Shown in pieces: positions 10,700 through 40,351 of a stretch of 64,000 bases of DNA. A program made the translations under genes and the position numbers. Origin of the DNA: Sipunculus nudus (Eukaryota > Annelida > Sipuncula > Golfingiida > Sipunculidae); assembly GCA_026874595.1 (NCBI GenBank), contig CM049321.1:7748979-7812978 (forward strand), read 5' to 3'. Under the pieces are notes generated by a model. The model had not been told where the DNA came from. It ran no database searches and saw nothing but the letters and a program-made list of their open reading frames with translations. Numbering within the stretch: the first letter of the stretch is position 1; each line of letters begins with the position of its first letter.

Positions 10700-10870
10700 A
10701 TTACCTCTCAGCCAATAGCAGCCCGCCATCCCCAGCGTCTAATTACTAGGAATGTACATCGAAATGCTGTGACGTCATTCCTGATGGTGCCATGACGTCA
10801 GAGGTTGTTCCCTGGGACCCGGCTTAGGGCTGACTTGAAATATATATGCACAATGCGTGGATTTTGTGTT
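10700..10870 (+). promoter_or_regulatory. NR4A core promoter with two CREs
   Basis: In order: a CCAAT box (10712-10716), perfect cAMP-response elements TGACGTCA at 10770-10777 and 10793-10800, then a TATA-like TATATAT at about 10840-10847. Initiation would be near 10,870. Surrounding DNA is GC- and CpG-richer than the window average. CREs 23 bp apart upstream of a TATA box fit the known CREB control of NR4A immediate-early genes. Linking this promoter to the receptor 16 kb downstream is inference, based on motif content, strand and the lack of any other gene between. Confidence 0.6.
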
Positions 10871-11449
10871 AGAAGTACGTGGACGCGCTTGCACGTCGGA
10901 TGGGCCTGCTGTGGTTGTGTTCCAAGGTGTCATAGGACTGCCGAAACACACTGGATTCCCATAGCGACCCGCAACCAGTGGCCAAAGGCACCGAAACGCA
11001 GCTCAAGCCAGGTACGTGTGGCATTGTCAGCACATGTGCTTTGTTTATATACGGCTCTCAGCTCTCCCGCGCAAGTTTGGGTCGTTTCAAGCCACATACG
11101 GAAGTTCCACAGTCGCCTGTGCACGTGCGTCTTTGGCATCACTTGTTCCCATGGTAACCAAGGAAAGCATGGATGCAATGATGAGTCCGTGAGTTGTATA
11201 ACGGGGGTGGATAAGAGGGCGTTTCAGCACGGATTTACACTTTTTTCCATCCCTAGCCGGGTTACCCCCGGTGTTTCCCAATGCACGTGGGTTTGCTGTA
11301 GTTCCTGCTGTATACACCAGCGTTTGGACTTGTGCAGTGTTTGTCTGGAATTATTTCTTTGGAGTTTGTGTGTATATCTCTCTCACCTGTCAAACCCAAG
11401 CCGGACGGACCTGTTCCCTTGGGATGAGATTATTGGTTTGTTTGACCAG
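10870..11449 (+). other. Probable NR4A non-coding first exon
   Basis: GC-rich sequence after the TATA-like box. Two good donors could end it: CCAG|GTACGTG after 11011 and CCAG|GTAAGC after 11449. The open frame across it (no ATG at its start) ends in a phase that does not match the 26,968 acceptor frame, so it is more likely 5' UTR than coding. NR4A genes usually have a non-coding first exon. A further donor, CCAG|GTAAGA at about 12,081, could mark an alternative 5' exon. RNA evidence is needed to choose. Confidence 0.4.
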
Positions 11450-14400
11450 GTAAGCGGACTGTTTCCTCTCTGGGATATCGTGGATGTACAGAGCTAGTGT
11501 GGGCGTCTGAACGCTCTGGGACACACATGTGTCAGAATTTCTTCTGTGTGAGGTGTTGTGTCGTTGGTGTTACACCGGTTGCTTGCATGCGCTTTGATCA
11601 CTTCGTGGATTAAGTTGCCGTCAGCTGATTCCGGACCTTCCGTTGATGCGCATAGGTATGTTGTTTTTATATTGTCTTGGTGTCTCATAGTGTATCATGT
11701 CTTAAATCTTGTCTCTTTTCTGTTCTTATATCCTTGCTTAAAGTGGACCGTGCTAGCTCTTGCGAACGCAAAAAGTAAGCAACCATAGATAAATAATTAA
11801 CAGATGGGGATAATAATAACTCGGCACATACTGTGTCCGTTGCGATATCAACTAATAAATTAATTTTATTGCTGTGGATATATACGACATATATAGGAGT
11901 ATATATCTTTAACTTCCAATTACCCAAATATGTAACCAGATGTATGATTGTTGAAAAAAAGCCCGGTGCAAGAAAGCAGGAGCCCTTGGCTATAAGAGAT
12001 ACACCGTACTAAGTATAGTGAGGCCGAACACACGGGCAGGCTGGCTGGCACTACCTGCCTCAGAAACCGTCTCACCTGCCAGGTAAGATGAACAGGCATC
12101 AAACTCCTCCGTGCTTTACAATGCTATCTTGGCTTCCCCCGGGAAGATCGTACACAGACATTGTACGAGCTTCTTTATGTACCGAGCTCCTTTGTATTAA
12201 TGCTGCTCACATTTGGATCAATTCCGGTTTTTTATTCGTCTTTGTTAAAATTCTAAAATTACGCATCGTTCAATATGTTCGAGAGCCTGCACTTATAACT
12301 CGTATATTTCTATTTTTTTCTATTTTAACTATTTGTTCTATTTATCCACCCAATTATGTTAACATCTTGTCAATTTTGAATACTGTAGATTGTAGACATA
12401 AAAAAAGACTCCCGGACAGACTTTTTTTTTACTTTGACCCCGAACAATTTTTGGGTTTATTTTTTTTATATTTTGCATTGCGTTTTTTTATAATTCCTCA
12501 TTAAATGTAGGCATTTGATGTGTGCCTGTGCCTTCTTTCGGTGAAAGATTCCTAAATACATATATATATATACTTCTTGTATTACAATTATTATTATTAT
12601 TATATTTTACTTCTAATATACCTTTGGCATTTAAAACATGAGAACTCATCCCAGGTTAACGTTTAATAAATGAAAATATTTCGCCAAAAATTTCATATAA
12701 CCACCCAGCATTGCCCATCCCGATAAAGTATTTATGTGAATCCCTCAGTATATGTCAACTGATTTATTATATCTTTTATCTAAGATCTTATCTCTAAGAT
12801 CATAAATGTGTCTTGCAACGTTTTGCTACAGATGTTCTTTCTGTATAGATAAAAAAATTGCAGATTTCTTTTTTTTTGTCAGAAGGCTCGTTGGTACTTT
12901 TTTCCTTAAAACAGAGAAAATAAGAAAATTGCCATTTGTAACTCACGTGTAAGATATTACCTTTACGGACATCCCATAATATACTTTATATGCTTAACTT
13001 TGCCTTCTCCAGACGGTTAATTGCTTGGCTTTAAATATGGAGTTTTCTCAAGAAGGAGGAATACAATACCTTTCATATGTTAACATAGATGAATACAATT
13101 ATGATGTCTTTTTTTTTTAATAAAAAATAAATAAATATATTTCAGGTCATCTGCTGATATGATCAATGAAATGAGTCCACTTCTTTTCCAAGTTGGGAAA
13201 ACTTAAAGCACCATTGGATCGAAGGAATTCCCACTTTTACAAGCAGTTTCAGAAATACTAATCACTTGGGTATAAGACCCTACCCGGTATACCATATTCG
13301 CATATTTATTTTGTTTGCTTTTACTATTATAATGGTAAAGTTTTGTAGATATAAAATCACCAATTTTCACTTAGCCTAGAGCATACCCTTGCTTTCACAT
13401 CCAAAAAATATACATATATAAATAAGATAACTTTGAGTTCCTTCAGAAAAATTTACTAATAGTGCCTGTATGCTGTATGCAGGAAAGCTGGGTTTCTGGT
13501 AATTTTTCATGAAAAAAGGGCTAAAATTCAGAGTTACACAGGCTTGTCCTGATTTCTTGGTAGAACATATTAGAAGCAATACTGCATATGGTCATGTTTC
13601 TGAGACACGTGAACCATTCAAAAGTCGGGCTGTATGATCTTCAAAGTAACATCCAAATCAAAATCCATACATTTTCAAATATGAACAGGGAGCCTGCCGG
13701 GAGGCACGATTCTTTGGGAGGCTTGTGCTACCGTGCACCGTAAAAAAGGGGAGGACGGGGAAAAAAATGAACTTTGCAGCTAACAAAACAAGCGGTAATG
13801 ATGATCAGGAAATCTGGGCTCAGGCCATCGGGCATCGCCGGAAAGGGGGATCGCGTGAAATTGCGAGGGCTGATTTTGGTTGGGATAATCAAGTTCTTGT
13901 ATCTATCATGGCGACAGAACTTGGAAAAGCAAGGCTTTGAGTGACAGCTCTGAAGAGCCACCGTTAGGTGAGCCCCAGGCCCCGGTTTTGTCGTCTTGAT
14001 TGTGATGGTGAGCTACCTGGCCCATGCGCGTTACACCGAAGAGATCTCATTCATTGGGGCCGCGCAACGGTCGTCTGCCAGGTCTTGCCACTTCTTGTGG
14101 TGATCGTCTGCTCCAGGCGCGGGCCGCTTCCAATTTACGCGCCAAAATTGACACTCCGGCCTGACTATAGCTCCTCACGTGTGTTCTTGTCTTGTAAGGA
14201 AGGGCTCACCATGTTCAACATGCTAAAGAGCTGGACACACCGTGGGGCTGTTGGCAAGCGGACAAATTGGCACTTTTGCACCGGATTCAGCGCGATTCCT
14301 GCAGCTTTGTTACGTCAAAAACTCGCTAGATGCGTGCCCGGCATCTAGAGTCCCCTCCTCTACCATGTATCCAATTATTTCGGGTTTAATGGAATCTCGC

Positions 14401-15896
14401 CGAAGCCAAGAAGCAATCTTTTCTCTGTTCTGCTTACGGTGGCTAGTAATGAGGCCATCCGCTACCAACACTTGTGGATCACGCGACACTGGTACTAAGT
14501 GCCACCATTCCTCCATCCTATATACTGAAACCCTCTTTGATATCGAACCCGGCAAGAACAAAACACCCACCGATTCTCATCCTCGGAAATTCTCCCACTG
14601 GCATCAGCGCAGGTGGCCGCACACACAGGCTCACAAACACCAAGACTTTTTTCCAAAGATTTGTCAGGAAAGGGGCTCACATTTGGAAGAAACTAGGTAC
14701 TCGTTCACTCAGGTTTATTCGCTGTAGGCTGTATCCATACGTTTTCAATGTAGACGCTGATGTGGTCAGTGAAAATCCAGAACTCTCAAAATCTGGTGGA
14801 GAGTGTAGCCTATACATGTACCACCATCCCATATTGTATACAACGTCCATATATACGCTTAATTTTTGCGCCCCTATATATGTAGGAAAAGTCAGCAAGT
14901 CTTCCGAAGCACTGTATGCTGTGCTTGGCATAATTACTTCTTGAAAAAGCGAACTGTATAGTGAATATGGCATTATTTAAATTTTGTATATTATAGATAT
15001 ATTTATGACCTTGACCAGTCTTTTGAAGTTGTGAAGAAATTATATATTTTATTTATTTTAGTGCAGGTGATCGCGCATACACAAGCGTTGGCTCTAAAAA
15101 CTTTGTTTATGGAGAGTGTATGAAGCCAATATAGTCATTTTAACAAAAGGCCTTACACTAAGATTTACGGACAGCTTAAACAGGGAAACCCAGATATAAA
15201 GTTGTGATAATATATTCTGCTTTTCGCCTTTGTTTTAGTCTGTTTTATTTCATTTCTATATTTTTATAGCATTTGGAACATAATTTGTTTTGATCATTTG
15301 TATTTTCGCTTGGGTGGCTTACATTCTTCCGAATGAAGTCATAGTTTCGATAGGTTCTCCAAATTCAAAACACTGTAATATTTACCATAGTATATTGTTG
15401 AGGAATATGATATGAAAAGAATAAGGCTACTATTGAAAGTTACAAAACGTTCAGTCCATGCAAGAGGGGTAGAGATAGGTCACGCCATAGTTATCTATAC
15501 GTTTTATGTGAACAGCGTTTCCCTTACCTGTACAAGGTAATTATCTTGTTAGTATGTCCACATCACTATCACTGTGTCATGTTAGGCTCGCCCGTGTATA
15601 AACGCAGTTGTACCATAATCTCATTGTCTTAGGTTTACTGTCCAAATATTTAAACAATCATTATGTTTGGTGAAGATAGGAAAGCTGAATAATTAGTCTT
15701 AGCTTAACTAAGTCTTATGATACACCAATTCCTTTCGTTTTAGTGCTGTTAGTGACTATGTTATCGTGTTATCACTGTGATTCATTTTACTATTGCTTTG
15801 TAATGTAACATATTTTTCGTTGGTATAATAATAGTTCGTGTATTATCAAACTTTGTAGATTTAACGTGACCAATCTGTTGCTGGTTTGAGTGTACT

Positions 15897-15899
15897 TTT

Positions 15900-15969
<70 letters not shown>

Positions 15970-15972
15970 AAA
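15897..15972. repeat. (TA)n flanked by inverted TTTTACCT arms
   Basis: TTTTACCTTATA leads into about 25 TA units and closes with TATAAGGTAAAA, so the locus is one long inverted repeat. The right flank extends into AATTTATATATA, and the reverse complement of that junction recurs at the TA tract near 49,408-49,428 (about 21 nt shared). This suggests a mobile element that carries or nucleates TA microsatellites. Confidence 0.6.
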
Positions 15973-16563
15973 TTTATATATAATTTCCAGAAGTTTATAA
16001 AGCAGAATGGTTTTGTATTTTTATACTTGCGATAAAATAATTAATAGGTACATAATCATAGGTTTATATGAAAACTAAATTCGCTAACTTCACAGCATGC
16101 TAGAACCTCAGACCCAGAGGTTGATAAATGGAATAATTACTACATTTTCAAAGCTCGCCGTAAATCCCATGTTGTAATTTGATGTGAAATAATGGTTAAA
16201 AATATTACAGTTTGTGCTTAAAATTGAATGTCGACAGTTTATGATGTATGAGAATCTGGAATTAAATTGACACCTTGCCTTAAAATTCATTTAAATACAG
16301 AATTCTCTGGTTCGGGCAGTTGACACAAAGTAGTTCAGCAAGTAATGAGGACAAGCTTAATTTTGTATGTTCAGCACAGCATACAGATTGTCACTCAGGT
16401 GTCTGTTCTGTTGTCTTTTCCGTTTCTTTCCTGTGCAGTCTTGTATAAATGACGCCTTGGCTGCGGAATGTCAAATGTGAATACGTCAGCCACTGCCATT
16501 TCAATTCCATGCCTAGTTTGGAAGGAAAATCATGCACATGTGAAAGATGTATTGCTGCCTATC

Positions 16564-16665
16564 TTACTACTACAACAACAACAACACCAACAACAATTAT
16601 AATAATAATAATAATTATTATTATTATTATTATTATAATAAAGTACAAATAATAATAATAATTGT
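16564..16665. repeat. CAA / TAA trinucleotide repeats
   Basis: CTA and CAA units pass into TAA and then TTA units, making a compound, partly self-complementary microsatellite. Confidence 0.85.
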
Positions 16666-16860
16666 TATTGTTATATAATAAATAAATGTTTAGTGTATTC
16701 AGAAAAAAAACATATTTATAGTTGAATTGTTTTGTAAAAAATATGTGATAACATCAGTAGGATAAATGCCTCTATTAAAGTTACCTTTCATTTTTGCATG
16801 CGTCTTGCTTGTCTTCAGTCGTTTAACTTGCTGTTTAAATGTTGCAATGTGACTCAAATT

Positions 16861-17060
16861 TAGAAGTTCAAATCGGATACGTGTATTACATGCAGGTCGA
16901 TTAAGGCGTCGACAACTGGAACAGACGCGTCTATTCCTAGCCTTATTAGCAAGGTGTCTTGTGTTGTTGCAGGAGTTCTGCACTAGAAAATGGTAACATG
17001 GTTCAATTTTAGCATTTCAAATCGGATGGATGTATTGCATTCAAGACGATTTGGGCGTGG
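16861..17060 (+). repeat. Diverged ~150-bp spaced duplication
   Basis: About 50 bp centred on AAATCGGAT...TGTATT...GCA...CGATT recurs about 150 bp downstream (16,861-16,911 and about 17,008-17,060) with substitutions. It lies directly upstream of the GC-rich motif cluster at 17.1-17.6 kb. Confidence 0.55.
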
Positions 17061-17233
17061 GTTTCACTAATAATGCCGTCTCTTCGAGAGCGGATTATAC
17101 TGAAGTCTGTATAGCACGTGCAGCCCGCCGTCTGCTCGTTTCAGCAGACGACACCAGTTTCTGCAGACGACACTTTGCCCGCGGCGAGCAGTCCTCCAGT
17201 ACAATACAGGGTCTTGTCAGGGGATTCTATTGC

Positions 17234-17640
17234 TTGCGCAAAACCCCGCAAAGTACAGGGATTCCCTGCGTCATAACAGCGCATAATAGGGCGAATGACG
17301 CAATAGCCTTTCCCTTCAGAAGCCTGCTTAGGCTATATTTAGAATATGGGACAACCGCTAGTCTTTCGATGTGCGTAGGAAGGCCGTCACATGCCGAGCC
17401 AGTCTCGACCCAACGGGCTCTTATCGATCGCGTGACGTCATTGTAAGGGGTTCCTTGCGTAAGCGGCCTGTATTCATTATCCATTCTCTATGCAAAACAG
17501 GCAAGCCCCTGCTCGCGCCAGGAGGTCCTTACTCTGACAATGACGTCATCGCAGGTGATCCCCACAGCTTTTTGCGTCGGTGGCAGAAAAAAAAAACGGC
17601 CGGTGTAAACAAAAACTAATTGAATTGTTGGGTTACGTCA
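17234..17640 (+). promoter_or_regulatory. Intronic CRE/MEF2/C/EBP motif cluster
   Basis: Within about 400 bp: a C/EBP palindrome TTGCGCAA (17234-17241), a CRE variant TGACGCAA (about 17295), a MEF2 consensus CTATATTTAG (17333-17342), perfect CREs at 17433-17440 and 17541-17548, and TTACGTCA at 17633-17640. The DNA is CpG-rich. MEF2 and CRE sites are established inputs to vertebrate NR4A1 promoters. I infer an alternative NR4A promoter or a strong intronic enhancer. A 7-bp perfect stem (17130-17149) and a twice-repeated GCAGACGACAC lie just upstream. Confidence 0.5.
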
Positions 17641-20600: not shown

Positions 20601-23471
20601 ACAGAGATTACAAAATTGTCCCACAAGCAAAATGTAACCTGCTATACATTCATTGTTTATTTCACTATTCAAATGCAACTTTTAACGCTTCAGCGAAAAT
20701 CAATATATGGAATATATAGGGAGCATTTGCACCATGATATCACAACAAATATGTATGTAATAAGATAAAATTAAAATTATAAATGTTATTTAATTTTCTT
20801 TCAAACTTCCATAATAAAATTATTAAATTATAGTTTTAAATATGAATAATTCCCATGAATTTTGTTTTTTTTTTTTTTTTGATTTTGTATTGAACTAGGT
20901 GATAAATACCGAAGTTAAACCTAGCACTAATGCTCAAACTCTATCGTTACATAAAATATCCTGTACAAAAATGACCATAAAATATTTTACATACTTCACT
21001 CCTAAAACCTCCCAAATGTGTTAAAGTTTAAGTATGTTAAATCATTAAATTGTCCGGGGCTTCCTAAAATTACAGACACCATGATTTATAATTATAATTT
21101 TATGTCACGTGGTATCACGAGAAGATGACATTTATCAATGAGGATTAGCCGCATGGTCTACACAGCACTGACAGGTGAGGTCGTGAGCGGTAGCAGATTA
21201 GTTTGAGTATTTGTTCATAGGTGGCAGCAAATACTTGAATCATAGTGTTCAGTGACTTCCGTGTACTCGCACAACGACCACCTGCTTTAATCACACAAAG
21301 AACATAGGCTGCCAGATTCATGGAGCCCACCACCTGGCTTGAATATAAGCCATCTATTATACATGAAGTCAAGATTATATTACAAAGAATTTTTTTTGCG
21401 TGAAAATCGAGAAAGCTCTGTATATATATATATATATGCTACTTTATATATCTACTTGACCATATGTTAATATATAGCGTATTCTGTCTTACGAATGTAT
21501 TTAATATATGTCTTATATTTTGACTGAAAAATGTAACTCGTGTCCCGAAATATTGTGGGATTCTTTCTCCGGAATCCAGGGTCAGGGTCAAGGGAATAGT
21601 TTACTTCCACATTTTTTTCACGTCATCTCCGTGGTTGTGGCTGAAATGCGTGAGCTGAAGAAAAGGGCTTGCACACAGCTCCTCTTCCCACAGCTGAGCC
21701 CAAAACTACGATTATCTGTCTGCTGTCGGCGCACAGATTGTCATATTTTTAACGCACAGCACTGCGAATTAAGAAATTCCGTGGTTGAAAATTTCTAGGT
21801 TTTAATTATTCTTCAAAAGCATGATATTTTATTATATCATATTTCATTAGTATATATATATAAATGTATATGTGCACATGTGCGTGTGTCGGTTATAAAA
21901 CTATTGGCTTTATTTTAAAATACAACCTATAATATCGAATCCTCCTGAAGTTCTTAAAAAACTATATTACCAGGAAAAAATCTGAAACGCTGAAAATTAA
22001 CTGCAGATGATATATTTTCATATTGTATCTCGGTCTCTCTTTCATGTTGTCATATTGTCTCGGTTTTCCTTTGAGTATAAATATATTTTTTAGGATGTTA
22101 TGATGTCTAGTGCCTGCTACATTTTGAGTGATTGTGTGTATCTAATTCATCATTATACAGTAGTGATAATATCTTAAATTATGTACTGTATATACATACA
22201 GATTTTTTTTTTCATATATTCTCACGGTTAGTTATATGATTTGTGTTAAAATTGCGAGATCGTTTTGAAATTAAAACCGGACTCTGAGTTGTCGAAAATC
22301 AAGTAGACCCAAGGGACCTCCCGCCTTTGTCCGCAAAAGATCCTATAACTGGTCCCTCATTGATCATTGGCGGACAGACGACTGGTCTGTATTGGCGCAC
22401 CAGAATGTCACACGCTTAAGGCGCATGCGCGTGAATCTGTGACCAAACTCCGACAATTAATTATGCAATATACACCGGCGCTCCACGGAAAGAAACACTT
22501 AACCTATGCAAGTTAACGGTGGGAATTGCATGTATAATTATAGGCAATGTGTTACAAGATCATAGAAGAACCAAATTTTCCCATGCGTCCCTTCACATGG
22601 CAAGCCCTATGTTTCATGGTAAAGGCCATGGTGGTTGAAATGAGAGGACTGACATTTCAAAGGAAATGTCGTCATCATTTATTCATCGTTATCTAAGCAC
22701 ATTACAAGACTGGAACGGATCCAAACAAAAGTTTTGTTCAACAGAAACAATGAAACGGCACATAAAATATGTGATCACTCAATACTAAACCGAGTCTCTG
22801 ATTCAGTCAACTAAAGTTTTTTATTACAAAAAATGCCTGTCAATCTTTTGTACCGCGTGACACATCAGACGTTTCCGGTTTAGCCTACATTTTTTGGATA
22901 ACCAAAACTAAAACATAGGCATCTTTTTTCCACTTAAACTGCTTGTTTGTTGTTGTATGATAAAAAAATGTCTGTATCACATGGGTTTTATACATGACTT
23001 AAGCAATGATTATAAATGAAAAGACCTTTTAATGAGCATGCGCATTGCGCTCAGTGATCGTCTGCAGCGTTCTGTTCTGAGTCTGTCGTGCCTAATTTTT
23101 ACAACTATAATTAAATACAACCCAGTGACTTCGACAGTAACCTGATCGTGAATGATTTGGTTGAATGTGTAATTTAATCATCTGAGAAAAAAATATACGA
23201 TCTTACTCCATAAATTTCAAGAACCCGAAAGCCCAGTGTTAGTCTCCGCTGATAGGTGGCATCATTGAAATGGGAAAGGTCTATTACACATGCAAGAATA
23301 ATGATCCATTGATTAAATTATTTAATCTGTTTTTTTAATGTAGCTGTTTAGCATTACACTGACATGTGCACGTTCATATAATTATATGTGCAAAGTACAT
23401 GGATGTACCTACGTATATTTTTAGTGGATATTTAGTGAAATATCTGTAGAAATATCAGTATGCTTATTGTC

Positions 23472-23477
<6 letters not shown>

Positions 23478-23507
<30 letters not shown>
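23478..23507. repeat. (GA)n microsatellite
   Basis: A pure GA dinucleotide run of about 30 bp. Confidence 0.95.
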
Positions 23508-25726: not shown

Positions 25727-25734
25727 TGACGTCA
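25727..25734. promoter_or_regulatory. Perfect CRE palindrome
   Basis: TGACGTCA in the NR4A 5' intron, 1.4 kb upstream of the first coding exon; part of the locus-wide CRE cluster. Confidence 0.5.
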
Positions 25735-27143: not shown

Positions 27144-30100
27144 GTAAGGCAGATATTACGTTAAAATACAAACAAATTTTACAATATTTTATTTGTTACC
27201 TAAATATAGAACTTCATATTTAGTATAGCGCCTGAACGTATAAGTAGATCTGAAAATAACTTGTGTGTTTAAAAAGCCATGTTTGGATTGATGCATTCCT
27301 ATTATTTTCGACATTATGCAATTCATGGCTTTTTTGTCGTGTCCTGTTTTGTTTTATTTAAAATGTAACGTAGTGCGACTATGTGTTTTGGATGGTGTCA
27401 TCCCAGACAGACGATTTTGGAAATTTTGTGTTACTTGGACTATGGCCAGTTGGACGATTTAAGGAACGACGATTTGGACATTGTTTTTTCCTTCGGTGTA
27501 TATGGTATTTCGACACACTTGAGAGAGAAGAGGGAGATGAAATTTGTGAAAATGCTGCTTCAATTTTTTCAAAGTATAAATATATTTTTATAATTTAAAA
27601 TTGGATATAGGCATTTTCCTAGAATATTTTGTCACACTTATTTTGCGTGTTTTTATTAATAATTTATATTAAAATATAGAAAAGAAATCAGACATTTCTG
27701 TTCAAATCCACGCGAAACAATATCATTAATTTATAGTGATATAGTGGTCTCTATGCAGCTTTAGCCGCATGTTAAATGCTCTCTGTGATACGAATTCAGA
27801 TTGGTTTCCCATCATTTTCTAAAGCATGGGAAACCGCAAGAACTCCAGCACTCATCCCTTCTACAACACAAACACCGCGACACACTCTCGCGAGACCTTA
27901 GGTCATCTCGTCTATTAGGGAGGACGGGCCGACAAACGACTCCGGCGCATGTCACCACTCAAACTAATGGGTCATCAGAGCGCGCAGTGATCCGTGACCG
28001 CGCCACTCCCTGCCTCCGCCACAAACATAACACGTGCAGTTTATAGTCCAAACACCCCAAGTCACCCGACTACCATTTCTAATCAAATAAATGGGGGTAA
28101 AATGGAACTATTAGACAGCAATGCACAGCATCGGTAGTTCAGCATCCCACAGCCCCGCTAAAACCGCTGATGGCCGGTAGCAGGAAATCTAAACACTCCG
28201 TGTTTATGTAAGGGTAAGATGGCTAATTTTAACAGACGAATCAGCTCGTAACAAATTTACTGGCTGACGTCAAACGTGGCTGAAAAAGTTTTGCCGGCTT
28301 TCGCTCTTCTTCATTGCTTGGGGAAATTATTAAAATGAACAGCTTGATTTTGCATCTGTCTGATAATTACAAGGACTTTATTTATTATATAAAAATAATT
28401 TTCGATGTGTTTGGAATGAGAAATCCTATCTGTAAACTCATAATATCAACATCCTTTTTCAAAAGAAAACTCACACAAACATATGTATATGACAAATGTT
28501 TTAGTTACTGAAAATATAAACAAGGGAGAAAGAAGAAATATTTATTTTGTGAATCTAAATAAAACAGCTCAGTAAATTGCAAACAATATTATTATGATAT
28601 ATGCATGTTTAGTGTACCAAAAATATGCTTAACAAGTATGATAGGTAAATACAATATGCAGTTTTATAAATATGCATTTGTATAAATTTATAGATAATAT
28701 ATATAGAGAGAGAAAAAAAAAGAGAGAGAAAAGGGGGAAACGAAACCTGTGAACCTTCAATAAATACCAAAGTATTTTTAAATTTCGTCTGTCTGTTGCA
28801 AACACGTGTCCACAGTAATTATTTTATTGCAAACTTTCCGATATTAATGGTCAGAGTCCGTCCTGGAACAAAAGATGGCGTATTCTCGCGGACGCTGTCC
28901 GTCATTAACATCACGTGGGGTGTGGTCAGCACGTGCCACGGGTAGTTTCGAACATTAACGGGTCGAGCCGGTACAACGTGTGCGTGCATGGACCAGCTGT
29001 CCGCTTTACTCATGTAACGTGGGTATATAGTTGCAGGGAGTTATGTCTGATTATATGTGACGGATGTATCGGTGATTCCGCCAATCGTGCTATCAATACA
29101 CAGACTAATTTATTTACTTGACCAGTGCACTGTAATTATAAAGCAATCTCAAAATCAGCACTAAATGATCGGTAGGTATCACATTTCATGTTTAACATGA
29201 TAGGCGTCTTTATCCGATGGAAACCTGCGCCAGTCTACGAGGTGCAGTCGGTTTCCGCGCAAACTGCAGGCAAACATTATGCAATACGGGTACAATAGTC
29301 CTACTGTTGTATGACTTCATGTGGGATGGAAACTCATGATATATGTTTATATTTTCACGAGCAGTTTTGCCAGTTATAACATAAACCGGTTTAAGCTCTA
29401 AGTACAATAATTATTTGTTATCAATAGGCTTCGGAAGAAAATGAAATTTATATATAACTAAGAACTCATCATCTGAAATAGCATTCACTCTGGACTCAAA
29501 TACATTAATGAATGTTTTGTAAAATATCATAAGACCTTTTTTTTTCCACAATTGATTTTCAAAAATCCGGAAATTAACGTGTCAGACCTATTTTGAAAAC
29601 CTAAGCATCTTTGTTACTACTATGTAGTACTTGTTTAGTGAAGGCATCGACAGAAGGTTATCATAACACTGCGCCCCCTCGTGGTCACTAAAGAAGAGAC
29701 GCTCAGGGAGCAGGTTTAGATTGATAGAAAACCATGTATTTTCTGCGCAGACATTACTGTGATGACCACGTGACTGTGATGACCACGTGACTTTGATGAC
29801 GTCATTATATTTTTCCCCACCTGCTTATAAAATTAAGAAAAGAACAGTTATTGTCCTTAAATTGTCACCGTGGAATAGGTATTAAATGAATATGATGGTT
29901 CTAATAGGATGGTTCTGTTTGAACATTATCCAATCTTGCTGTTATGTTAGCTGAAGTAACACGTGGCGTTGCTTTCTTCCAGAGTAGTTTCAGCAGTACA
30001 TCGGCTAGCAGCTTGGAGCGCGTGCATAGCGGACCAGCGTCGTACAACTTCAATGTGAATATTAGCATGGGATCTCCAGTGGGAACATTTTATCCAGAAG

Positions 30101-33100
30101 AGGGCAGTAGCTTCGCGGGAGAACTGCCGACCTTTGACCCCTTCCCAGCATCCTTTGATGTACCCTCCGCATCCGGTTACCAGGACCCGACTCAGGTCAT
30201 GGCCACAGTCACGGATACTCCGTACACAACGGAGTCTTCGCTCATGTATAAAGACTCTAAAACGGACACTTTTGCGTTCAGTAGTGAACACGAATACAGC
30301 ACAGCGCACGGACATGGAAGATTCCCTCTGTCAAGCTCACTTCATCATCAACAACAACAATATACACACGAAGAACCAAGCTTCTCTAAACAAACCGAAT
30401 ACCAAAGCAGTCCACCCATGTTTGAACAAAAACAGCCCAGCACTCTCGGGCAGACTTACGAATCCCAAAGTCCACAGGTGTTCCCACAAGACAGCAAAGA
30501 AGCCGTATTCTCAAGTCCCACTTTTGAAGGGAGCCAAACAGGGTTTCCTGGAGACCGCCAAGGTTTCCATAGTTACCAACAGGCGTACTACAGTGGTAGC
30601 CGCCTTCCGACTCCAGATAATAGTTCCAATTTTGGCCTGCAGAGCGGCGGTTTGATGTACCGGGCAGACTTCAATGTTCAAATGATACAACAGCCATACA
30701 CGGGTCACGGAACACCTTTTTCCGTACCGGTGGGACATGAGACTGGGTGAGCTGAATTTTTAATCAAAGTGCATTTAAACTCTATTTTCTATGTTACCGT
30801 AATACTTGACTGTCATCCTATTTAATATCCTTGTTATATAACTGTTACTTTTTTCTACCCGCTATCGAGTTTTTTTTCTGTCCGAGAATATCTCTCATTC
30901 TTAACTAATCACGAAATTTCGATTAGAAAAACTTCAGTATAACATTTTATTTTAAATTTTATTCAGGAGATCTCAATTCCCTTGGGACTGATGATCCATA
31001 GCATGTTAATTAATCGCGGGGTTTGATTGCATCCAATTTTGAATGTCATTTAACAGACCGGTAGCTGTCACTATATCATGGTGTTCTATTTTCTGGTTTC
31101 TGTTTTGTAACAATACTTTCTGCCTCGTTTCCAGCATGGACTTGCCTCGGTTTGGTATGTCGTCGCCAACCACCCCTTCTACCCCAACTTCCACCCGTTC
31201 TACCCCACCCCAGGACCCCCAGCCACCCCCTCACCCCCAAAAGGAGAGTCTGTCTTGTGCGGTTTGCGGAGATAACGCGGCCTGCCAGCACTACGGGGTC
31301 AGAACGTGTGAGGGATGTAAAGGCTTCTTCAAGGTAAGTTAATATTCAAATTTGTCAACCCCATCCAGGGAGAAGGGACGTTATGAATTTATCTTTGTAA
31401 TGATATTCGGCTCCGGGTTTACAAAGTTATCGACTACAGTATTCTTTTTTTCTCTTAATTTTTTTCTGTGTTTGAGCAAGTTCTAAAAAAAGGCTGTTCT
31501 TTCCCATACTGACCTTTTTCAGAGTAATGGACAGATTTCCACCTGATATGTATTTCTCATCTTGACCTAGTTTTCAAGTTCGTACGCTCCACATCATTTC
31601 CCTATTATCACTCAAGTTTCTTATTTGTTTTCTTTAGGCCATACGTTTAACGGCATCGCCCAATTTTCACAATTTATTTTGTTGCAGGCGAATGAGGACA
31701 GTGACACCATCGTTAATTTTCATGCTAATGTTATTATTTATGTTACGTTCAGATTAATTTAAATAGACTCATATCAGCACATGTTACTGTTCATTTAAAT
31801 GTATGTTTGTCAGTACCGGAAAGTAAAAAGGGTTTTTACACTTGTATATTACAGAGAATAGTGTAAACTTGGAAATATTAAGCCATACAGATGTGTGTTA
31901 CAAGATGATTTAACGGACTTACGAATATTGCAGAGAACAGTACAAAAGGGCGCGAAATACGTCTGCTTGGCCGACAAGAATTGTCCCGTAGATAAAAGGA
32001 GACGTAACCGCTGCCAGTTTTGTAGGTTCCAGAAATGCCTAACAGTAGGAATGGTCAAAGAAGGTAGGTGTCTTTTTATTTTTTAACATTTTAAAAGTCA
32101 CTTTTATAAGTTTGATAATAGTTTAGAATTCATGCTTGCTGATATCATCATAAGAGTGGCTACATTAATCATTAGAATAGCTTTTATCAGTAACATACTA
32201 ATGTTTTGTAAATGATTTCATTCTTCATGAAATATGGGTTATTGTATGTTTAGTACCTGTCTTATTCATTATGTATTTAATATACACAATGAAAATATGA
32301 GTGATGAGGGCATCCACTTTCTGTTGTACTGAGACTATATAGATATAATCATATTATATCTATACTCCGGCTACATTATATATAATTTCCCAATCAGTTG
32401 TTTCTTTATATATGATTTACTTTTGTGGAGTATATTCAGATCAGTAATAATAAATTGGGTTGGGTTTTACTCCATGTTGTTCTATTAGTATATAAGTTTA
32501 TGAGCTTGCATGTACTAAAATGATATGGACGACCATTTTGAAGAAGGTTATGGTTAATTTGTAGTTCTCATTTAATAACCACACTATTATTTTCAATATC
32601 TGTTATTTTATGACCACTCACCATTGTGTGGTTTGTTTTCAGTTGTGCGGACGGACAGTCTGAAGGGTCGCCGTGGTCGCCTGCCTTCTAAACCTAAGAG
32701 TCCACAAGAAAGTCCGCCTTCCCCTCCAATCAGTCTCATAACAGCCTTGGTCAGGGCCCACGTGGATACCTCACCTGATATCCCGACGCTAGATTACTCA
32801 CAGGTAATTAGCATAAATCTGCATAGGACGGTGACGTCATTGTGTGATACTACGTGGACACCCCTCTAAATTTCTCAAAATTAGATTACTCAAGGACAGG
32901 AGTAGTGACCGTATATCAGCATAAAAGCATAAATGACTGTGACGTCATTGTGACAGCTTATGTGGATACCTGATCCGATTAATCATGGGACATTTGCATG
33001 TTTCAGTGTAAACCTGCGTGAGGATTGTGTAATAGTGATAAAACTTTGGTCGGTGGAGCTTTGCGCTCGCTGGGTGCTTTCTAACTTTTATATTGATACT

Positions 33101-34959
33101 GTGAATACATTCCTCGTACATTCCTTAATTTTGTCATTGAGAATAATCTGAGATAGGTCAGAAAGTTAAGAATATTTTCTAGTTATATCAGCTTGTAAGG
33201 TATAATGATCTTAATTTATTTTTCAGTATAAAGTCCCGACCGGGGAGGAGGCACCGCGGCCTCTTATGGAGCAGGTCCATCAGTTTTACGACGTACTTCT
33301 GGCGTCCCTTGATGTGATGAGGGGGTGGGCGGAAAAAATCCCGGGGTTTACAGATCTACACAAGGCGGACCAAGAGCTCCTGCTACAGTCGGCTTCACTG
33401 GAGCTGTTCGCCCTCAGGATTGCATATAGGTGCGGCATTAATTGGGCTTTTACTGTATATATCCTGCCACTAAACTGTATAGATTATAGAGAAATGGAGT
33501 GAAGCACATTGTTTGCTTAACACGGATAAGTAATTGTGGTTGTTCTTTTTCAATTTAAGTGTTTATATTATAATTAATATACTGTAAACCTCGATATTAT
33601 AAGCCATCGTATTCAGAATAATGACCTCGACTTACCGTATTTACCTAACCTTATTTTTCCTTACCTTGCCTTATTTACCTTATTTACCTAACCTTTCTTT
33701 ACCTGACCTTGCTTTATCTTATCATACTGTTTGCAGGGTCCAGGCCGGGGATGACCGGATCGTATTCTGCACTGGCCAGGTGTTACACCGCCTGCAGTGC
33801 CTTGGTAGTCTGGGCGAGTGGATTAATTCCATCGTCGATTTCGGGCTGACCCTACACAGAATGACCATAGACATATCGGCTTTAGCCTGCATGGCAGCTC
33901 TTACTCTCATTACTCGTGAGTATAGTCTCAACCTATTTGTATTAGGCAATAAAAGGCATGGTAAAAGCACTACATAACAAAGGAAATCTTATCAAAATTG
34001 TATAATTTTATCTTCTTGAAGAAGAAAATAACAAAAATGATGCGTGGGGTAAAATTGACGTTGGCGGTGCCTGAGAACCATACCCTTTTTTGGCCTTAGA
34101 TTCTATGTTATAATTAAAGGTGGTGCCACTTGACTTTTGTCACGCATCTACTCGGTAGCAATGCCTCGGAAATGCCCGTTTTTGGTCTTCAACTCTCCGG
34201 TTATTGCATTTTTCGCGAAGGGATTATTGCAGCGCCATCTATCCGGTCCTACATGAACTACGCGAGAACGGGTGATATGCTAACTGGAAAGATAAAATAA
34301 AAACGTGGCGTGAATGGTGTGTTTTCTTTTCCGGTTGGTTTCAGAATAAGTGAAGATCACGCCACACACAGCAACCATTTAATTGTTGGTGCAAATAAAC
34401 TTCGCCCCCTTGTGAGATGTGAACCAAATAAAATAGTCCGCACAACTTAAGGCTATATTTATGTTTGGCATCTCTATCTAATAATATGACAGTTTAAATC
34501 CAAAATATATGCTTCACTGAAAGATATGTTTAACATATACTTAATAACCCTATAGAACTTGATGTTCCTTTCAAAATAATGCAATATAAGCTGCATCAGA
34601 GTAACAATATGTTTCAAAACAACAGTTCACTACTATTGAAAATTATATGAATATATGAATGTTTAATACTGAAACTAATACATTGTGTGTTGTTTTCAGA
34701 TCGGCACGGCCTTGAGAAGCCAGATCGTGTAGAGGAGCTTCAAAACAAAATTGTTGACGCGCTGCGGGATCACTGTACATATAACAGTGACGCCATGAAG
34801 AAACCACAGTTCTTCTCGCGGATTCTCGGGAAGATCCCGGAGCTGCGTTCAATTAGTCGAGAAGGCCTCCAGCGGCTATACTTCTTGAAAGTAGAAAAAA
34901 TCGCGGCCCCGCCGCCTGCCCTGGATAAGTTATTCATATCGAGTCACCTGCCATTTTAA
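27123..34959 (+). CDS. NR4A: NR4A-family orphan nuclear receptor
   Basis: A nuclear transcription factor that binds DNA through two C4 zinc fingers. Exons: 27123-27143, 29983-30746, 31135-31333, 31934-32063, 32643-32803, 33227-33429, 33737-33915, 34700-34959. All junctions are GT-AG and in phase; 1917 nt gives 638 residues. Order: Ser/Gln/Pro-rich AF-1 (about 1-290); DNA-binding domain from [14 protein letters not shown] through P-box CEGCKGFFK to [13 protein letters not shown]; the extension [19 protein letters not shown] that in this family reads the A-rich 5' half of the NBRE; hinge; ligand-binding domain with [10 protein letters not shown]-terminal helix ending HLPF. Introns after GFFK and after GMVKE match vertebrate NR4A positions. 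Family members work without classical ligand and are induced by cAMP, Ca2+ and growth signals. The start ATG in MLLLQPQ is chosen because it is in frame; the frame is open further upstream in that exon, so a longer N terminus is possible. Orthology is secure; the subtype need not match one vertebrate paralogue. Confidence 0.95.
28265..28272. promoter_or_regulatory. Perfect CRE in GC-richer intronic island
   Basis: TGACGTCA at the end of a GC-richer stretch (27.8-28.3 kb) between the start exon and the AF-1 exon. No exon is supported in this stretch; it is a candidate intronic enhancer. Confidence 0.45.
29671..29686 (-). promoter_or_regulatory. CTCF-like core motif
   Basis: On the minus strand it reads GACCACGAGGGGGCGC, a close match to the CTCF core CCASNAGGGGGCGC. 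Similar motifs lie at 34403-34414, 35486-35498 and 37011-37024. Function is inferred from sequence only. Confidence 0.4.
29759..29806 (+). promoter_or_regulatory. Tandem E-box plus CRE composite
   Basis: A 17-bp unit GTGATGACCACGTGACT occurs twice head to tail (29759-29792), giving E-boxes CACGTG at 29767 and 29784, followed by a perfect CRE at 29797-29804. The last 24 bp (29783-29806) recur with one mismatch in the 3' UTR at 35137-35160. Located about 180 bp before the AF-1 exon. Likely a CREB plus bHLH-zip input. Confidence 0.5.
29983..30746 (+). CDS. NR4A: NR4A exon: AF-1 transactivation domain
   Basis: Follows the acceptor GCTTTCTTCCAG and ends at a GG|GTGAGC donor, phase 2. It encodes about 255 residues rich in Ser, Gln, Pro, Phe and Tyr, with a short QQQQ run and aromatic/acidic patches such as [14 protein letters not shown], typical of the disordered NR4A AF-1. 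An in-frame ATG at 30067 could serve as a downstream start. Confidence 0.9.
31135..31333 (+). CDS. NR4A: NR4A exon: first zinc finger
   Basis: Acceptor CGTTTCCAG, donor AAG|GTAAGT. A Pro/Thr/Ser linker is followed by the first zinc finger with cysteines in CAVCGD and the P-box CEGCKGFFK. The exon ends exactly after GFFK, the conserved NR4A intron position. Confidence 0.95.
31934..32063 (+). CDS. NR4A: NR4A exon: second zinc finger
   Basis: Acceptor ATATTGCAG, donor AAG|GTAGGT. Encodes [17 protein letters not shown] and on to [20 protein letters not shown], with all four second-finger cysteines present. Confidence 0.95.
32643..32803 (+). CDS. NR4A: NR4A exon: DNA-binding extension and hinge
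   Basis: Acceptor GTTTGTTTTCAG, donor CACAG|GTAATT. Encodes [19 protein letters not shown] followed by a Pro/Ser hinge and [17 protein letters not shown], the start of the ligand-binding domain. Its 3' end and donor are partly duplicated in the following intron. Confidence 0.95.
32757..32972 (+). repeat. Tandem partial duplication of exon end and donor
   Basis: The segment running from CACGTGGATACC in the exon through LDYSQ, the donor and a CRE recurs in degenerate form in the intron (units starting near 32,759, 32,851 and 32,959). The perfect CREs at 32832-32839 and 32940-32947 are 108 bp apart. The intronic copy keeps TTAGATTACTCA but has lost the working donor. Confidence 0.65.
33227..33429 (+). 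CDS. NR4A: NR4A exon: ligand-binding domain, part 1
   Basis: Acceptor TTATTTTTCAG, donor ATAG|GTGCGG. Encodes [20 protein letters not shown] and the PGF..L.KADQ...L signature shared by nuclear receptor domains. Confidence 0.95.
33737..33915 (+). CDS. NR4A: NR4A exon: ligand-binding domain, part 2
   Basis: Acceptor TGTTTGCAG, donor ACTC|GTGAGT. Encodes the [20 protein letters not shown] segment through [14 protein letters not shown]. Confidence 0.93.
33973..34099 (+). repeat. Interspersed repeat family G, copy 1
   Basis: About 127 bp running from CATAACAAAGGAAATCTT to TTTTTTGGCCTTAG, with the landmark GTGCCTGAGAACCATA. Homologous to the reverse complement of 46,774-46,902 and to about 51,775-51,945, with shorter relatives at about 47,000-47,036 and 51,595-51,760. 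It lies in an NR4A intron. Family unknown, non-coding, SINE-sized. Confidence 0.6.
34700..34959 (+). CDS. NR4A: NR4A last exon: LBD end and AF-2
   Basis: Acceptor TTGTTTTCAG. Encodes [18 protein letters not shown] to the stop TAA at 34957-34959. The terminal helix reads [11 protein letters not shown]; vertebrate NR4A proteins end KLFLDTLPF, so this one carries an extra residue and lacks the Asp. Confidence 0.95.
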
Positions 34960-36066
34960 TTTCGGCGCCATCTTTGACACTTAGTGTCGATGGATGCCGG
35001 GAGGTGTCGCTTTATAAATGCGCCGTCTTCTTCGCCACATCGTCGTGTGTCACGTGATTCAGATTTTAGTTCCGGTGCCCCCAGTATGCACCTCCAACCC
35101 TTCTGTGAATGCACCAATTAGATGGTTACCGTCGTACCACGTGACTGTGATGACGTCATTTGTGACTGCATGTCGTCCGATGGCGTGACTTTAGCAGTGT
35201 CGACCAAACTGCCTGTACGCCACCCAGATATTTGGGTGTACCAGACGTATTTATACAAAATAAATAATGAAGAGACTGTTATGCTTTCATTATAAACCTG
35301 GTAGGACGTTTGCGCCTATGGTTTGAAGTGATTGCCATGTCGTGGATTTTGTTATGGTAGCAAAAACTTGCCTCTAGTTAATTGAAATTGTTTTGTATAT
35401 TATTATGATGGACACATCACCACTCTTTGTTATAGATACATTGTCGTCGGAGAAATACACATTTAGACTATAAAGGCACACATGAGCGCCCCCTTGTGTT
35501 GAAAAGAGACACTAGGCGAATTTTTATTTTACGTTTTGTATTTGATCTCGTGCACGGAACGTCAAGTGGAAGCCAACCCCTCCCCAGTATCATGGTTGTC
35601 CCTTAAATATTGTGCCATCTTGAGTCTGACATGGGAGTTACTGATACATGGCTATATGTGTTCACGTGCTTGGGATAGAATTCAGTTTGGTGTAGAATAT
35701 CATGTAAATTTTTTATTTTAAGTATGGTATCAGTTGAGGCTTATGTGTACGGAGACGTGTCGCCTTATTATTTGACAGTGAAGTGATAGCTGTTTTCATT
35801 TTAAGGCAGAATTTAATCTTGTTATATACTGTGCGTGAACACTGTAAGGTCGCTTATCATTATCCCGAGTAATAAGTCACGTGACTCGTGTTTGCAGACG
35901 AACAAGTACCAGATCACGTGATCATGTCAGCAGACGTACAATTAGTTACCAAGGAGACAGTACCTGCCGTCTGCAGAACTCTCTGCCTTGCGGACTGCCT
36001 GAAAAGAAATATAAACGGAGGATTTATGACGAAAAAATATAGTCTACTTTCCTAAGGAAAAATAAA
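34960..36066 (+). other. NR4A: NR4A 3' UTR and polyadenylation region
   Basis: After the stop codon, AATAAA hexamers occur at 35259-35264 (about 300 nt downstream) and 36061-36066 (about 1.1 kb downstream), so short and long 3' UTRs are possible. ATTTA words, which can destabilise immediate-early mRNAs, occur near the first signal. The stretch also carries the E-box/CRE composite at 35137-35160, a CTCF-like motif at 35486 and palindromic E-boxes at 35875-35886 (AGTCACGTGACT) and 35912-35923 (GATCACGTGATC). The true 3' end is not visible from sequence. Confidence 0.5.
35137..35160 (+). promoter_or_regulatory. E-box/CRE composite, second copy
   Basis: CCACGTGAC, a short spacer, then TGACGTCATT; 23 of 24 positions match 29783-29806. 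The intact CRE is at 35151-35158. Confidence 0.5.
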
Positions 36067-37465
36067 TGTCCAAAACAGATGCTCGGTTCTTCATTCTTTG
36101 TATTCAGTGATTTCGGTCACAAAGTATTTGGTTGGTACTCAGGAAGATTTGGACCCCCATGGATAGTGAGTTCTCTCCACAGGTTGATTCATCCAAGCGA
36201 AACCAAAATAAACTACATCAGTTTTCAACTTTTGTGATATAAATTCAAATCGAACTATCTTGACAATAGAACAATGCATATACATACATGTTCACATGAT
36301 AAACAGAGGTGGTACCAGAGAATTTTTGTAAGCTAGTGACTGACATATTGGTTTTGTAAAATTTTCGATTTATCTAAAATTGTAATTGATTTATTAGAAT
36401 TTTCAGATAAAGATTATTTTTAAGTATAAATTAAATCGGCTTAAAACATGGTAAATTACTAAAGTTTGCCGCAAGTTCCTATTTATAGCGTGTCGGTACG
36501 TATCTTTTAGAACATGGCGACCAAGTGGAGTTTATCACATCAATGGTGCCCTCTGTCGGATTTATGAAGATCACTAAGAGCCATAAAGATGACTGTTGGC
36601 TTAAAAGCATATACTTATGTATAAGCATGAGATTTAAAGATTAAATTAAAAAAAATCAGATTATCCAAAATGTTATTTGGGTATTTTCAGCAATTATGCA
36701 TACTTTATTTTACAGTTATTCATCTAATTTAAAAACTTATATTATCCGAATGTCAATTTTGTGCATTCAGCAATTATACATACATTTATTGTACCGCTAA
36801 CAGATGTGTAAGCGACTTCCTACAGGTCACAAACGTAAAATGTTTCTAAGGATAAAATTTCAAATATAGTCCATTAAGCCAAAAATCACAATGTAAAATA
36901 CTAAGTACTAGCTCAAATGTGTACACCTCACGCAGCGGTTATACACTGCAGTCGTACCAGGTCTTCTTTGTTCTGGCCGCTACTCTGCATAGCAGATTCT
37001 CCGGGTTACGCCACCAGGGGTCGCACAGAGCAAACATTTGTAATAAGACCAATTAGAGCATGGTATCGCATTGTGCATCCAATTCACAAGTTATAAATCC
37101 GCGACATTCCCCGCTCGTTGGAATGATTCTTGGCCCTGTGCGACACCTGGTGTTGAGAGCCCGAAAACGTGCTGTTCAAAGCAGCTGTTACAGCAAGGAG
37201 ATATGGAATGACTGTAGTGGATAACCCCTGCGTGAGGAGTACAGCTCAACCGATATAAGTCCTTTGTCTAAAGACTGTAAATTGTTTGATTCATTAATAA
37301 GATGGGTCTAATGTTAATGATATCAATGATAAACACGTGTTCTGTACTCTAAAATGTTACTCTAAATATCAAGGTCACATTATCTCATGTAACTGCTGGT
37401 AAATCGAATACTGAATTTGATATTCTGAAATTATTGCAGTCATATGACCAACATGAAGATTGTAG

Positions 37466-37820
37466 TGACGTCATAGAGAAGAAAAAAGGTCACGCAAAGT
37501 TAAATATATATATATTTTTTTGTATTTTATGTCTTTTCTATTATTAATACTAAATTTATCAGGAAAACTTGCATTATTGTATCGCCGTAATAACGTTTAA
37601 GATTTATATGCGAAAAAGTAATATGTTAAAACAAAGAAACAATCAAGTTTATAATAAATACTTTCATATACTGAGGAATATTCATATGTTTTACTCATAA
37701 ACAAGAATGTGTTTGGAGTACATTCGACATCAGCCGTTAGACAGGTTACGATGTGAGTGAAATCCGTTACGTCTAGTGAACGGAGTAAGGTGAGGTGACG
37801 TCATCATTAGGGTGACGTCA
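37466..37820. promoter_or_regulatory. Downstream CRE cluster with NBRE
   Basis: Perfect CREs at 37466-37473, 37796-37803 and 37813-37820. The last two sit in a tandem 17-bp unit GGTGACGTCATCATTAG. An AAAGGTCA half-site, the NR4A monomer-binding NBRE consensus, lies at 37485-37492, 12 bp from the first CRE, so CREB input and NR4A autoregulation could meet here. About 2.5-2.9 kb past the receptor stop codon. Confidence 0.45.
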
Positions 37821-40193
37821 TCATTAGATGAAAGTGAAGAACAATGATTTCTGTCTTGGATTGTATTTGTAATATATGATGATTAAGAGTAAAAAATGAC
37901 AGATCCTAAACACGTAGTATTTTGTTGATGAACTTTGGTGTGTTAACCACCTTTAGAGTATATTTAGACAACCAGTAAACAATAAGCAAGAACCCAGCAT
38001 AAAACCCCACTCACAGGGAGACACAAGCTGTACGATATGAAGGGGTATCAACATTACTTCAATATGATAATGCCTGAAGTCTGTGCCTCTTTTAGACATT
38101 TTCCAAAGATATTTCCGTCACAAAACTTTTTTCTATTGGTTTCTTTATCACATTGACAAGATAACCTGGAACAGGAGAAAAGGACTATTTTTTTTAACTG
38201 CACAACATTTATTTAAGCGTTTTGTGGCAGCATACAATGAAGTCTGCAGGGCCTAACAATAAAGGAGTTAAAGGCAAAAGGGTCAGTGTTATTTGACAAT
38301 TCATACCTAATTATTACAGCAATATAACATAATTTAAACTGATAAAGAGCCAGTTATATGGTGTAGCCTTGATATAAATATTCGACGAAAACAGTAATTT
38401 TCTAAATTACCGGAACATACATTAAAGTGGTTTGTCTGTTACTAGAACAAAACTTTAAACGTGAGAACTGCACCAATCCTTGTTTACACCTGCACATTTG
38501 TTTTCCTTTACAACTGCACAGATATGGGTCAACTTCACATCAGAATATGTCCTGTTCAGAAAGTCTTGCCCGTGATCAGTGAAGCCAGAATGAACCGCTT
38601 CAATAAGTCTCGCCTACCCTTCACAAAATTTCCTTAATTGATTGCCCTCATATGAAAAGAAAATACTTAATTAAGTCCATCACATTTTATTCCTTTGATT
38701 TGTACCAGACTAACATTACAAAAATCAATCTATGTAGCCAGGTGTGACTGTAAATACATGTTTTGACTTCTGAGTAGCATATACCAAAATCTAACAAAAC
38801 TGGGACACTGGTCTGACTTGAAACTCTTTTCCATTCTCCACACAGAAGATCTATCTATGAATGTACTCATGCCTCATGCCTATATACGTTCGCACAGCTC
38901 GCTTTTACGCAGATAGCGAACTGTTTCACCCGAGAAGTGTATATTATTACAAGAGTTAAGAAAAGTATGAGTATGCATCGACATCGATAGGTGGCGCTGC
39001 ACGGTGGCGGCCACGGAGGTTTTTGAGCTCTTCTATTCTTCTATTCTGACATTTATTCCAAATATAACCAACAGGAGGTATTTGTCTGTGAAACCTGATT
39101 TAGGTGTAGATAGACCTGTGGATCTATTTTTGCGGGTGTTATATCCGTGACGCGGAATTGTAAATATAAAGAGAAACTTAGGCACGTACTTCCTTGGATA
39201 ATATACGTGATACAACTGTTTCAAGAACTGTTGAAGATGTAAATGCAGGTTGATAGTACAGTGATACTTGTTGTGGTCATTTCAACGTTATGTCAAAGAA
39301 TTACCGGGATGAAATCGGAGATTTACCTGTGTTGCATGCTGACATAAGGAATGACTTATAAGGGATTTCAAGTCACATGTTGTTCACATTTACTGATCAT
39401 GCAAGTGGGTCGGTTACTGGGTCAAATGACAGGCCAAACATGCTCAAATCCATCAATGTCACCAGGGTTTGTTTCTTATGCACAATAGACGCTATCACAC
39501 AACTTCACCATTCCTCACACAGGTCTGTCTATGAATATCAAGGATAATCCTCCTGCATACATTATTCACTCACCACGCTTTTACGCCTAAATCGAGCAAT
39601 TGAAATTATAAGTCAATCATGCATTGACAACTTTAATTTCAAATATAGCGGTAATAAAGAAAGGTATTGTCTGTTTCAAATTTCATAAAACCCGGGGAAC
39701 TACATTGCGGCACAGTATCGGTGACGTGTAAATGTATACAAACAAATACCACGAGGCACCCGGTTTAAACCCGTGTTTGGTAAATGGGCGTGATTCTGAG
39801 ATGACGTCGGGGTTCCACTCGGAACACCTCGCCTCATCTTCGGGTGGTCTCGGGAGAATAAAAAATCGGCCACGAGTTCCGAGTGGTCCGGTAAATGTGG
39901 GCCGCCATGTTTGTATAGTGTGGTTGTCTCAAGGCCGCAGAAGTAGCGTGCCGGTTGAACAAGCAATTGCAGGAGTCTTTTCATCTTCCCCGATAGATCT
40001 TGCCCATGTGCGGAGGCTGCAGCTTCACATTGGTCAACTCATGATAACAACAAAATTAAGAGGCTGTTAACAATAAACAGTTACCGGTTCGATAAGGTTA
40101 GGCAAACTTAATAGCACGTCGGTTTGTAATGCGCATGGTAGATTTCATCCAGAACAGTGACTTAGCCGTAATGTGATCGGCTGTTGCAAAGTG

Positions 40194-40351
40194 TGACGTC
40201 ACCGGCAAAATTTAGAAATAACTTCAATCTAGCAATTAATGTTGTTTTTACTCTTCCCTGAAAATCTGGGACTGACGGTGTCAGAAATACCAAACTTTTG
40301 ATGAGACATAGAATTTGTAGTCACAGGGCGATTTTCCTGTGTGTGACGTCA
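40194..40351. promoter_or_regulatory. Pair of GTGTGACGTCAC sites
   Basis: Two identical 12-mers containing perfect CREs (40194-40201 and 40344-40351) lie 150 bp apart in otherwise non-coding DNA. Confidence 0.4.

Follow-up and report, generated by a model that had tools for sequence, protein, structure and literature searches.

What does it mean that an NR4A locus carries 15 perfect copies of the full CRE palindrome (TGACGTCA), spread over 29.6 kb? NR4A is a CREB target common to animals, in memory and in stress. The window analyzed here is a 64-kb stretch of DNA (C16:7748979-7812978) from a genome of 1,426,538,692 bases (1.43 Gb). An exact word scan of the window found 15 copies of TGACGTCA and no others, which reproduced every position given in a preliminary description of this DNA. 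Start positions, counted from the first base of the window, are as follows.

TGACGTCA start positions: 10770, 10793, 17433, 17541, 25727, 28265, 29797, 32832, 32940, 35151, 37466, 37796, 37813, 40194, 40344

The preliminary description had called the gene at this locus NR4A, and its protein bears that identity out. Domains zf-C4 and Hormone_recep scored above their cut-offs, and when the domain region, joined into 336 aa, was compared with PDB, human NR4A2 matched best (7wnh_A; phmmer E 2.2e-156). The product combines a C4 zinc-finger DNA-binding domain with a ligand-binding domain, and NR4A is the closest family. All six introns have GT-AG borders, and the reading frame is open across them.

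29944..34959, plus strand: NR4A coding region, seven coding exons, 644 aa, predicted start codon
29944-30746, 31135-31333, 31934-32063, 32643-32803, 33227-33429, 33737-33915, 34700-34959: NR4A coding exons
29784..29831, plus strand: likely core promoter, with E-box CACGTG at 29784 (another at 29767), CRE at 29797-29804 and TATAAAA at 29826

The CRE at 29797 ends 21 bp upstream of TATAAAA and starts 147 bp upstream of the ATG at 29944. From this order of CRE, TATAAAA and ATG, the NR4A core promoter, with a predicted start site, likely lies at about 29.8 kb rather than at 10.8 kb. The genome also encodes a CREB1 orthologue (C13:62806549-62806704), which is 81% identical over 52 aa of the bZIP (query residues 5-56).

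Relative to the ATG, the 15 CREs lie at -19.2, -19.2, -12.5, -12.4, -4.2, -1.7, -0.15, +2.9, +3.0, +5.2, +7.5, +7.9, +7.9, +10.3 and +10.4 kb. The preliminary description had them running from the promoter through introns and 3′ UTR into downstream sequence. Sites do lie far from the promoter, but six of them precede the 29.8-kb promoter, by 1.5 to 19 kb, and just two are intronic, both in one intron; one more is found past the stop codon and five farther downstream. The elements other than the promoter CRE are listed below (only features with an orientation are given a strand).

10770..10800: CRE pair 10770 and 10793, 23 bp apart, 19.2 kb before the ATG; flanks matched only themselves in the genome search
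17433..17548: CRE pair 17433 and 17541, 108 bp apart, 12.4-12.5 kb before the ATG; flanks matched only themselves in the genome search
25727..25734: single CRE, 4.2 kb before the ATG; flanks matched only themselves in the genome search
28265..28272: single CRE, 1.7 kb before the ATG; flanks matched only themselves in the genome search
32832..32947: two CREs, 32832 and 32940, 108 bp apart, carried by a degenerate tandem duplication inside the intron that separates coding exons 4 and 5
35138..35158, plus strand: E-box/CRE composite; its CRE, 35151, starts 192 bp past the stop codon, ahead of the first AATAAA (35259)
37466..37473: CRE, 2.5 kb past the stop codon, with AAAGGTCA at 37485; flanks matched only themselves in the genome search
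37794..37827: 17-bp tandem repeat in two copies with one CRE each (37796, 37813); flanks matched only themselves in the genome search
40143..40427, plus strand: copy of a dispersed repeat (about 285 bp) carrying CREs 40194 and 40344; similar copy at 62149-61859, minus strand

Since CRE 35151 is positioned between the stop codon and the first AATAAA, it is probably in the 3′ UTR. We take the AAAGGTCA at 37485 to be an NBRE-like word.

Base composition and chance were rejected as the cause of the cluster by shuffles, Markov models and order-3 simulations. The preliminary description put the chance level at about one copy per 64 kb; 100 dinucleotide shuffles gave 0.78 per window, and the richest of them held 4. 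Markov models of orders 0 to 4 predicted 0.7 to 2.2 copies; orders 5 and 6 gave 7.7 and 13.1, figures inflated because models of these orders absorb the TGACGTCA word itself. No order-3 simulation out of 400 contained more than 6 copies of TGACGTCA (15 observed), and among 176 palindromes of 8 bases with 4 or more G+C, the highest count reached by any was 9. When 8-mers with at least 6 occurrences were ranked by observed/expected ratio, TGACGTCA was fourth, below CCCCCCCC, GAGAGAGA and AGAGAGAG. The sites are also clustered within the window: 15 random points in 64 kb would span so short a range with a P of 1.2e-4, and 5 of the 14 gaps between adjacent sites do not exceed 150 bp (1.04 expected; P 0.002). 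One-mismatch variants of the CRE (30 in total versus 18.9 expected) are not similarly concentrated, with 12 inside 10701-40400 and 18 outside, which indicates that the perfect word is what clusters. In an unbiased hexamer table for 10701-40400, TGACGT and CACGTG lead once A/T-rich words are set aside. TGACGT occurs 41 times there (11.0 expected) and 17 times outside (12.2 expected), an enrichment that is partly circular since the CREs define the region borders; that of CACGTG is not circular.

The earlier statement that the sites are confined to the locus proved too strong. Five further copies of TGACGTCA lie in the 40 kb adjoining the window, three in the 20 kb upstream (two of them RTGACGTCAY) and two in the 20 kb downstream (none RTGACGTCAY). 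The apparent edges of the array are therefore a window effect, and the domain has no sharp edge.

RTGACGTCAY is the flank preference of CREB/ATF factors, and the sites of the array follow it closely: 14 of the 15 have R at -1 and 13 have Y at +1, so that 27 of 30 half-sites fit (p 4e-6 assuming independent sites, an assumption that the duplicated sites violate). Site 10793 is without Y at +1, and site 28265, flanked by C and A, is the worst match. Genome-wide, RTGACGTCAY has 26,276 occurrences, a rate of 18.4 per Mb; the backward control pattern has 8,263, for a ratio of 3.2. The array holds 13 in its 29.6 kb, where the genome mean predicts 0.54, a 24-fold excess over that mean; with the two repeat-borne sites removed, 11 remain, a 20-fold excess. 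The density was thus far above chance, as had been claimed, and also far above the genome mean. The genome background is clumped, and Poisson odds consequently overstate the array. Among the 50 RTGACGTCAY sites listed for the first 3.3 Mb of C1, 23 fall in two arrays at 44-45 bp spacing, and the densest other 29.6-kb stretch among those 50 holds 6. The two arrays (C1:2830346-2832202 and C1:3296785-3296926) look satellite-like from coordinates alone; a further clump, at C1:2999875-3023437, packs six RTGACGTCAY into 24 kb.

Control loci were far poorer in CREs. Across 28 other nuclear-receptor loci (88.4 kb) there were 4 TGACGTCA and 0 RTGACGTCAY; these were 3-kb stretches around the DNA-binding exon, taken from the best 30 of 67 matches minus two NR4A, rather than matched 30-kb neighborhoods, and some possibly share one gene. 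Six arbitrary 10-kb stretches (60 kb) had no TGACGTCA. The locus of the FOS orthologue (54%) had 1 TGACGTCA per 30 kb and that of the CREB1 orthologue 3 per 30 kb, 2 of them RTGACGTCAY. Around the EGR orthologue (85%, C1:2748357), there was no RTGACGTCAY in the listed C1:2458874-2791334, a count made for this long form. Judged on these four genes (NR4A, FOS, EGR and CREB1), a dense full-CRE array is not general to immediate-early genes in this genome. Among the matches listed for the EGR probe, most of the C2H2 zinc-finger matches with lower scores lie on C16, the chromosome of the window, which suggests a zinc-finger expansion on C16.

A CRE-carrying repeat family, proposed beforehand as one finding that would count against the array, accounts for CREs 40194 and 40344 but not for the other 13 of 15. 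For these 13, a search with a joined nine-segment query (1,636 bases) returned nine matches, all self; no second genomic copy of their flanks was found, and a repeat origin was rejected on that basis, with the proviso that absence of matches in such a search does not prove rarity. Thus, homotypic clustering, as a density above both sequence-matched and genome background outside repeats, was found for 13 of the 15 sites. CREs 40194 and 40344 came with the dispersed repeat at 40143-40427 and may be passengers. The copy at 62149-61859 (minus strand) is 76.5% identical over 294 bp and has one mismatch in each CRE. A first look across the genome gave 1,954 candidate copies; all 40 that were scored matched, namely, the repeat itself and 39 others at 83 to 87%. 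With two CRE-like words 150 bp apart, this ~285-bp repeat is a candidate spreader of CREs through the genome, and the present case shows that a dispersed repeat can place CREs beside a gene of this type.

Local duplication involves three more sites: 32940 with 32832, 37813 with 37796, and 35151 with 29797. Copies 32832 and 32940 share a 58-bp local match at 74%. At the fixed offset of 108, the CRE core (32828-32844) is identical at 16 of 17 positions and the flanks at 12 of 20 and 11 of 21. This duplicate is weak evidence of function because the pair was picked for holding CREs. The pair 17433/17541 has the same 108-bp spacing, and duplication of its flanks was not evident in a MAFFT alignment; a common repeat behind both spacings was therefore rejected, as only the second pair aligns as a duplication. 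With two repeat-borne and three locally duplicated sites set aside, about ten independent origins are left.

The second enriched word, CACGTG, occurs 24 times in 10701-40400 (4.2 expected) and 8 times in the rest of the window (4.2 expected). Elsewhere, there were 16 copies in the 40 kb of flanks, 15 in the 88.4 kb of other nuclear-receptor loci and 5 in the six arbitrary stretches (60 kb). We considered whether CACGTG is coupled to CREs in general and rejected this: 5 of 15 CREs have CACGTG within 200 bp (3.9 expected; P 0.37). A specific E-box/CRE composite, CACGTGACTNTGATGACGTCA, is found exactly at only two places in the 1.43-Gb genome, 29784 and 35138, both at NR4A. Near-matches number 1 with one mismatch and 18 with two; the backward control gave 11. 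The single one-mismatch copy (C17:2049230) had no gene recognizable by eye among nearby ORFs. The composite at 35138 matches 29782-29806 over 25 bp at 96%. A 17-bp tandem, ACTGTGATGACCACGTG, adjoins the promoter CRE (29756-29800) and is common to the composite past the stop codon (35136-35160).

The array is real and unusual, and it sits at a known CREB-target gene. We consider it probable, reading from sequence, that this NR4A is an immediate-early-type gene with a CREB-type CRE/TATA promoter and a distributed homotypic CRE enhancer array, in which full CREs extend from 19 kb before the coding region to about 3 kb past its end. These CREs would be occupied by CREB or by a closely related CREB/ATF factor. 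In response to cAMP or Ca2+, phospho-CREB and/or CRTC would recruit co-activators (CBP) at the proximal CRE/TATA, and the upstream, intronic and downstream CREs would add input, giving strong, fast NR4A induction. At the E-box/CRE composite, CREB and USF-type input could be joined, on the model of the Bdnf promoters. CREB action at the 29.8-kb promoter is well founded by analogy; that the distal CREs contribute to NR4A output is something we infer.

Known systems offer partial parallels. The ICER/CREM promoter contains four tandem CREs and is strongly induced by cAMP; it resembles the present locus as a homotypic CRE cluster, but its sites are in one promoter and those here are spread over ~30 kb. 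In mouse neurons, one study describes strong induction of Nr4a1 and Nr4a2, which have a proximal CRE/TATA, by depolarization and cAMP via CREB/CRTC1, and much weaker induction of Nr4a3, which has none; CRTC1-driven induction of Nr4a1/Nr4a2 requires the CRE/TATA spacing (PMC5740062). The locus studied here is like mammalian Nr4a1 and Nr4a2 in having a CRE near a TATA just upstream of the NR4A gene, in a genome with a CREB1 gene. It is unlike the mouse genes in the number and form of its sites: between -3 kb and +0.3 kb, Nr4a1 has 6 half-sites, Nr4a2 5 half-sites and 1 full site, and Nr4a3 2 half-sites (PMC5740062, Table 1), against 15 full palindromes over 29.6 kb here, a comparison in which half-sites are not matched one to one. 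Drosophila Hr38, the NR4A orthologue, is activity induced, and the CrebB ChIP signal in embryos coincides with open chromatin at its start site; in the portions of that report used here, a full-CRE array is not described for Hr38, which we compared by description (PMC12572301). Bdnf promoters I and IV have calcium-responsive elements for CREB and USF (PMC10135494), and the CACGTG beside a CRE here is likewise a CREB site with a USF-type partner. The difference, besides the gene, is that there are just two CRE/E-box composites here and that proximity of CACGTG to CREs is otherwise at chance level. Searches of the literature on NR4A or homotypic CRE clusters and on NR4A/CREB in molluscs, Aplysia and Hr38 turned up no such array in titles and abstract openings, which is not proof of absence.

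Other explanations account for parts of these data. If only the proximal CRE/TATA works, perhaps with one or two nearby sites, the remaining CREs would be neutral products of local duplication, a repeat and a CRE-rich background. Two sites do lie in a dispersed repeat and three in local duplications, RTGACGTCAY is 3.2 times as frequent as its backward control and other clumps exist; against this, about ten sites have independent non-repeat flanks with the flank preference across them, and the other loci examined have 0 to 3 TGACGTCA per 30 kb. We regard a proximal-only promoter as unlikely, and give the same weight to occupancy by other bZIP factors (ATF2/JDP2, ATF3 or the CREB3 class), in which case the locus would read stress and not cAMP/Ca2+. 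The full CRE palindrome is common to several bZIP families, and the flanks of 5 of 15 sites depart from GTGACGTCAC, through T on the right with A on the left or in other ways. Yet TGACGTGG, a CREB3/XBP1-type word, is absent from the window, and CRE/TATA on NR4A is the classical CREB/CRTC arrangement (PMC5740062).

Slightly less doubtful, though still improbable, is that the pairs at 10.8 and 17.5 kb are alternative NR4A first exons or promoters of unrecognized transcripts rather than enhancers. Their surroundings are richer in GC and CpG (GC 0.526 and CpG o/e 1.10 at 10501-11000; 0.498 and 1.10 at 17001-17500), while no Pfam family exceeded its cut-off in the 18 non-NR4A ORFs scanned, a subset of those in the first 42 kb. 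Chance or repeat artifact, which does hold for 40194 and 40344, is very improbable as an explanation of the entire cluster in view of the shuffles, the simulations, the self-only flank matches and the density of 20 to 24 times the genome mean.

Beyond the CREB-type promoter with a distributed array, the locus may be a selected, gene-wide cAMP/Ca2+ response domain. With ten or more full CREs of independent origin and a locus-private composite on both the promoter and 3′ sides, NR4A would then be the strongest or among the strongest CREB targets of the genome, its output scaling over a wider signal range than promoter-only CREs would allow. We put this forward tentatively, at a little below an even chance. 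If the array is functional, a few promoter half-sites are not the only way to build the link between CREB and NR4A: perfect CREs arrayed over a long range can serve instead. The locus would then be a natural test of CRE number as a determinant of both strength and range in an immediate-early response. Master cAMP targets could also be screened for cheaply across the genome, by counting non-repeat RTGACGTCAY per locus.

Searches of the window for known RNA or tRNA features gave no matches (Rfam, 0; ARAGORN, 0). Weak, below-cut-off reverse-transcriptase domain matches at 44468-44734 and 45784-46032 (both minus strand) are probably LINE remnants. A 66-bp tandem repeat occupies 52870-53070 in 3.1 copies, and trypsin-type serine protease exons lie on the plus strand at 47144-47416 and 48549-49046.
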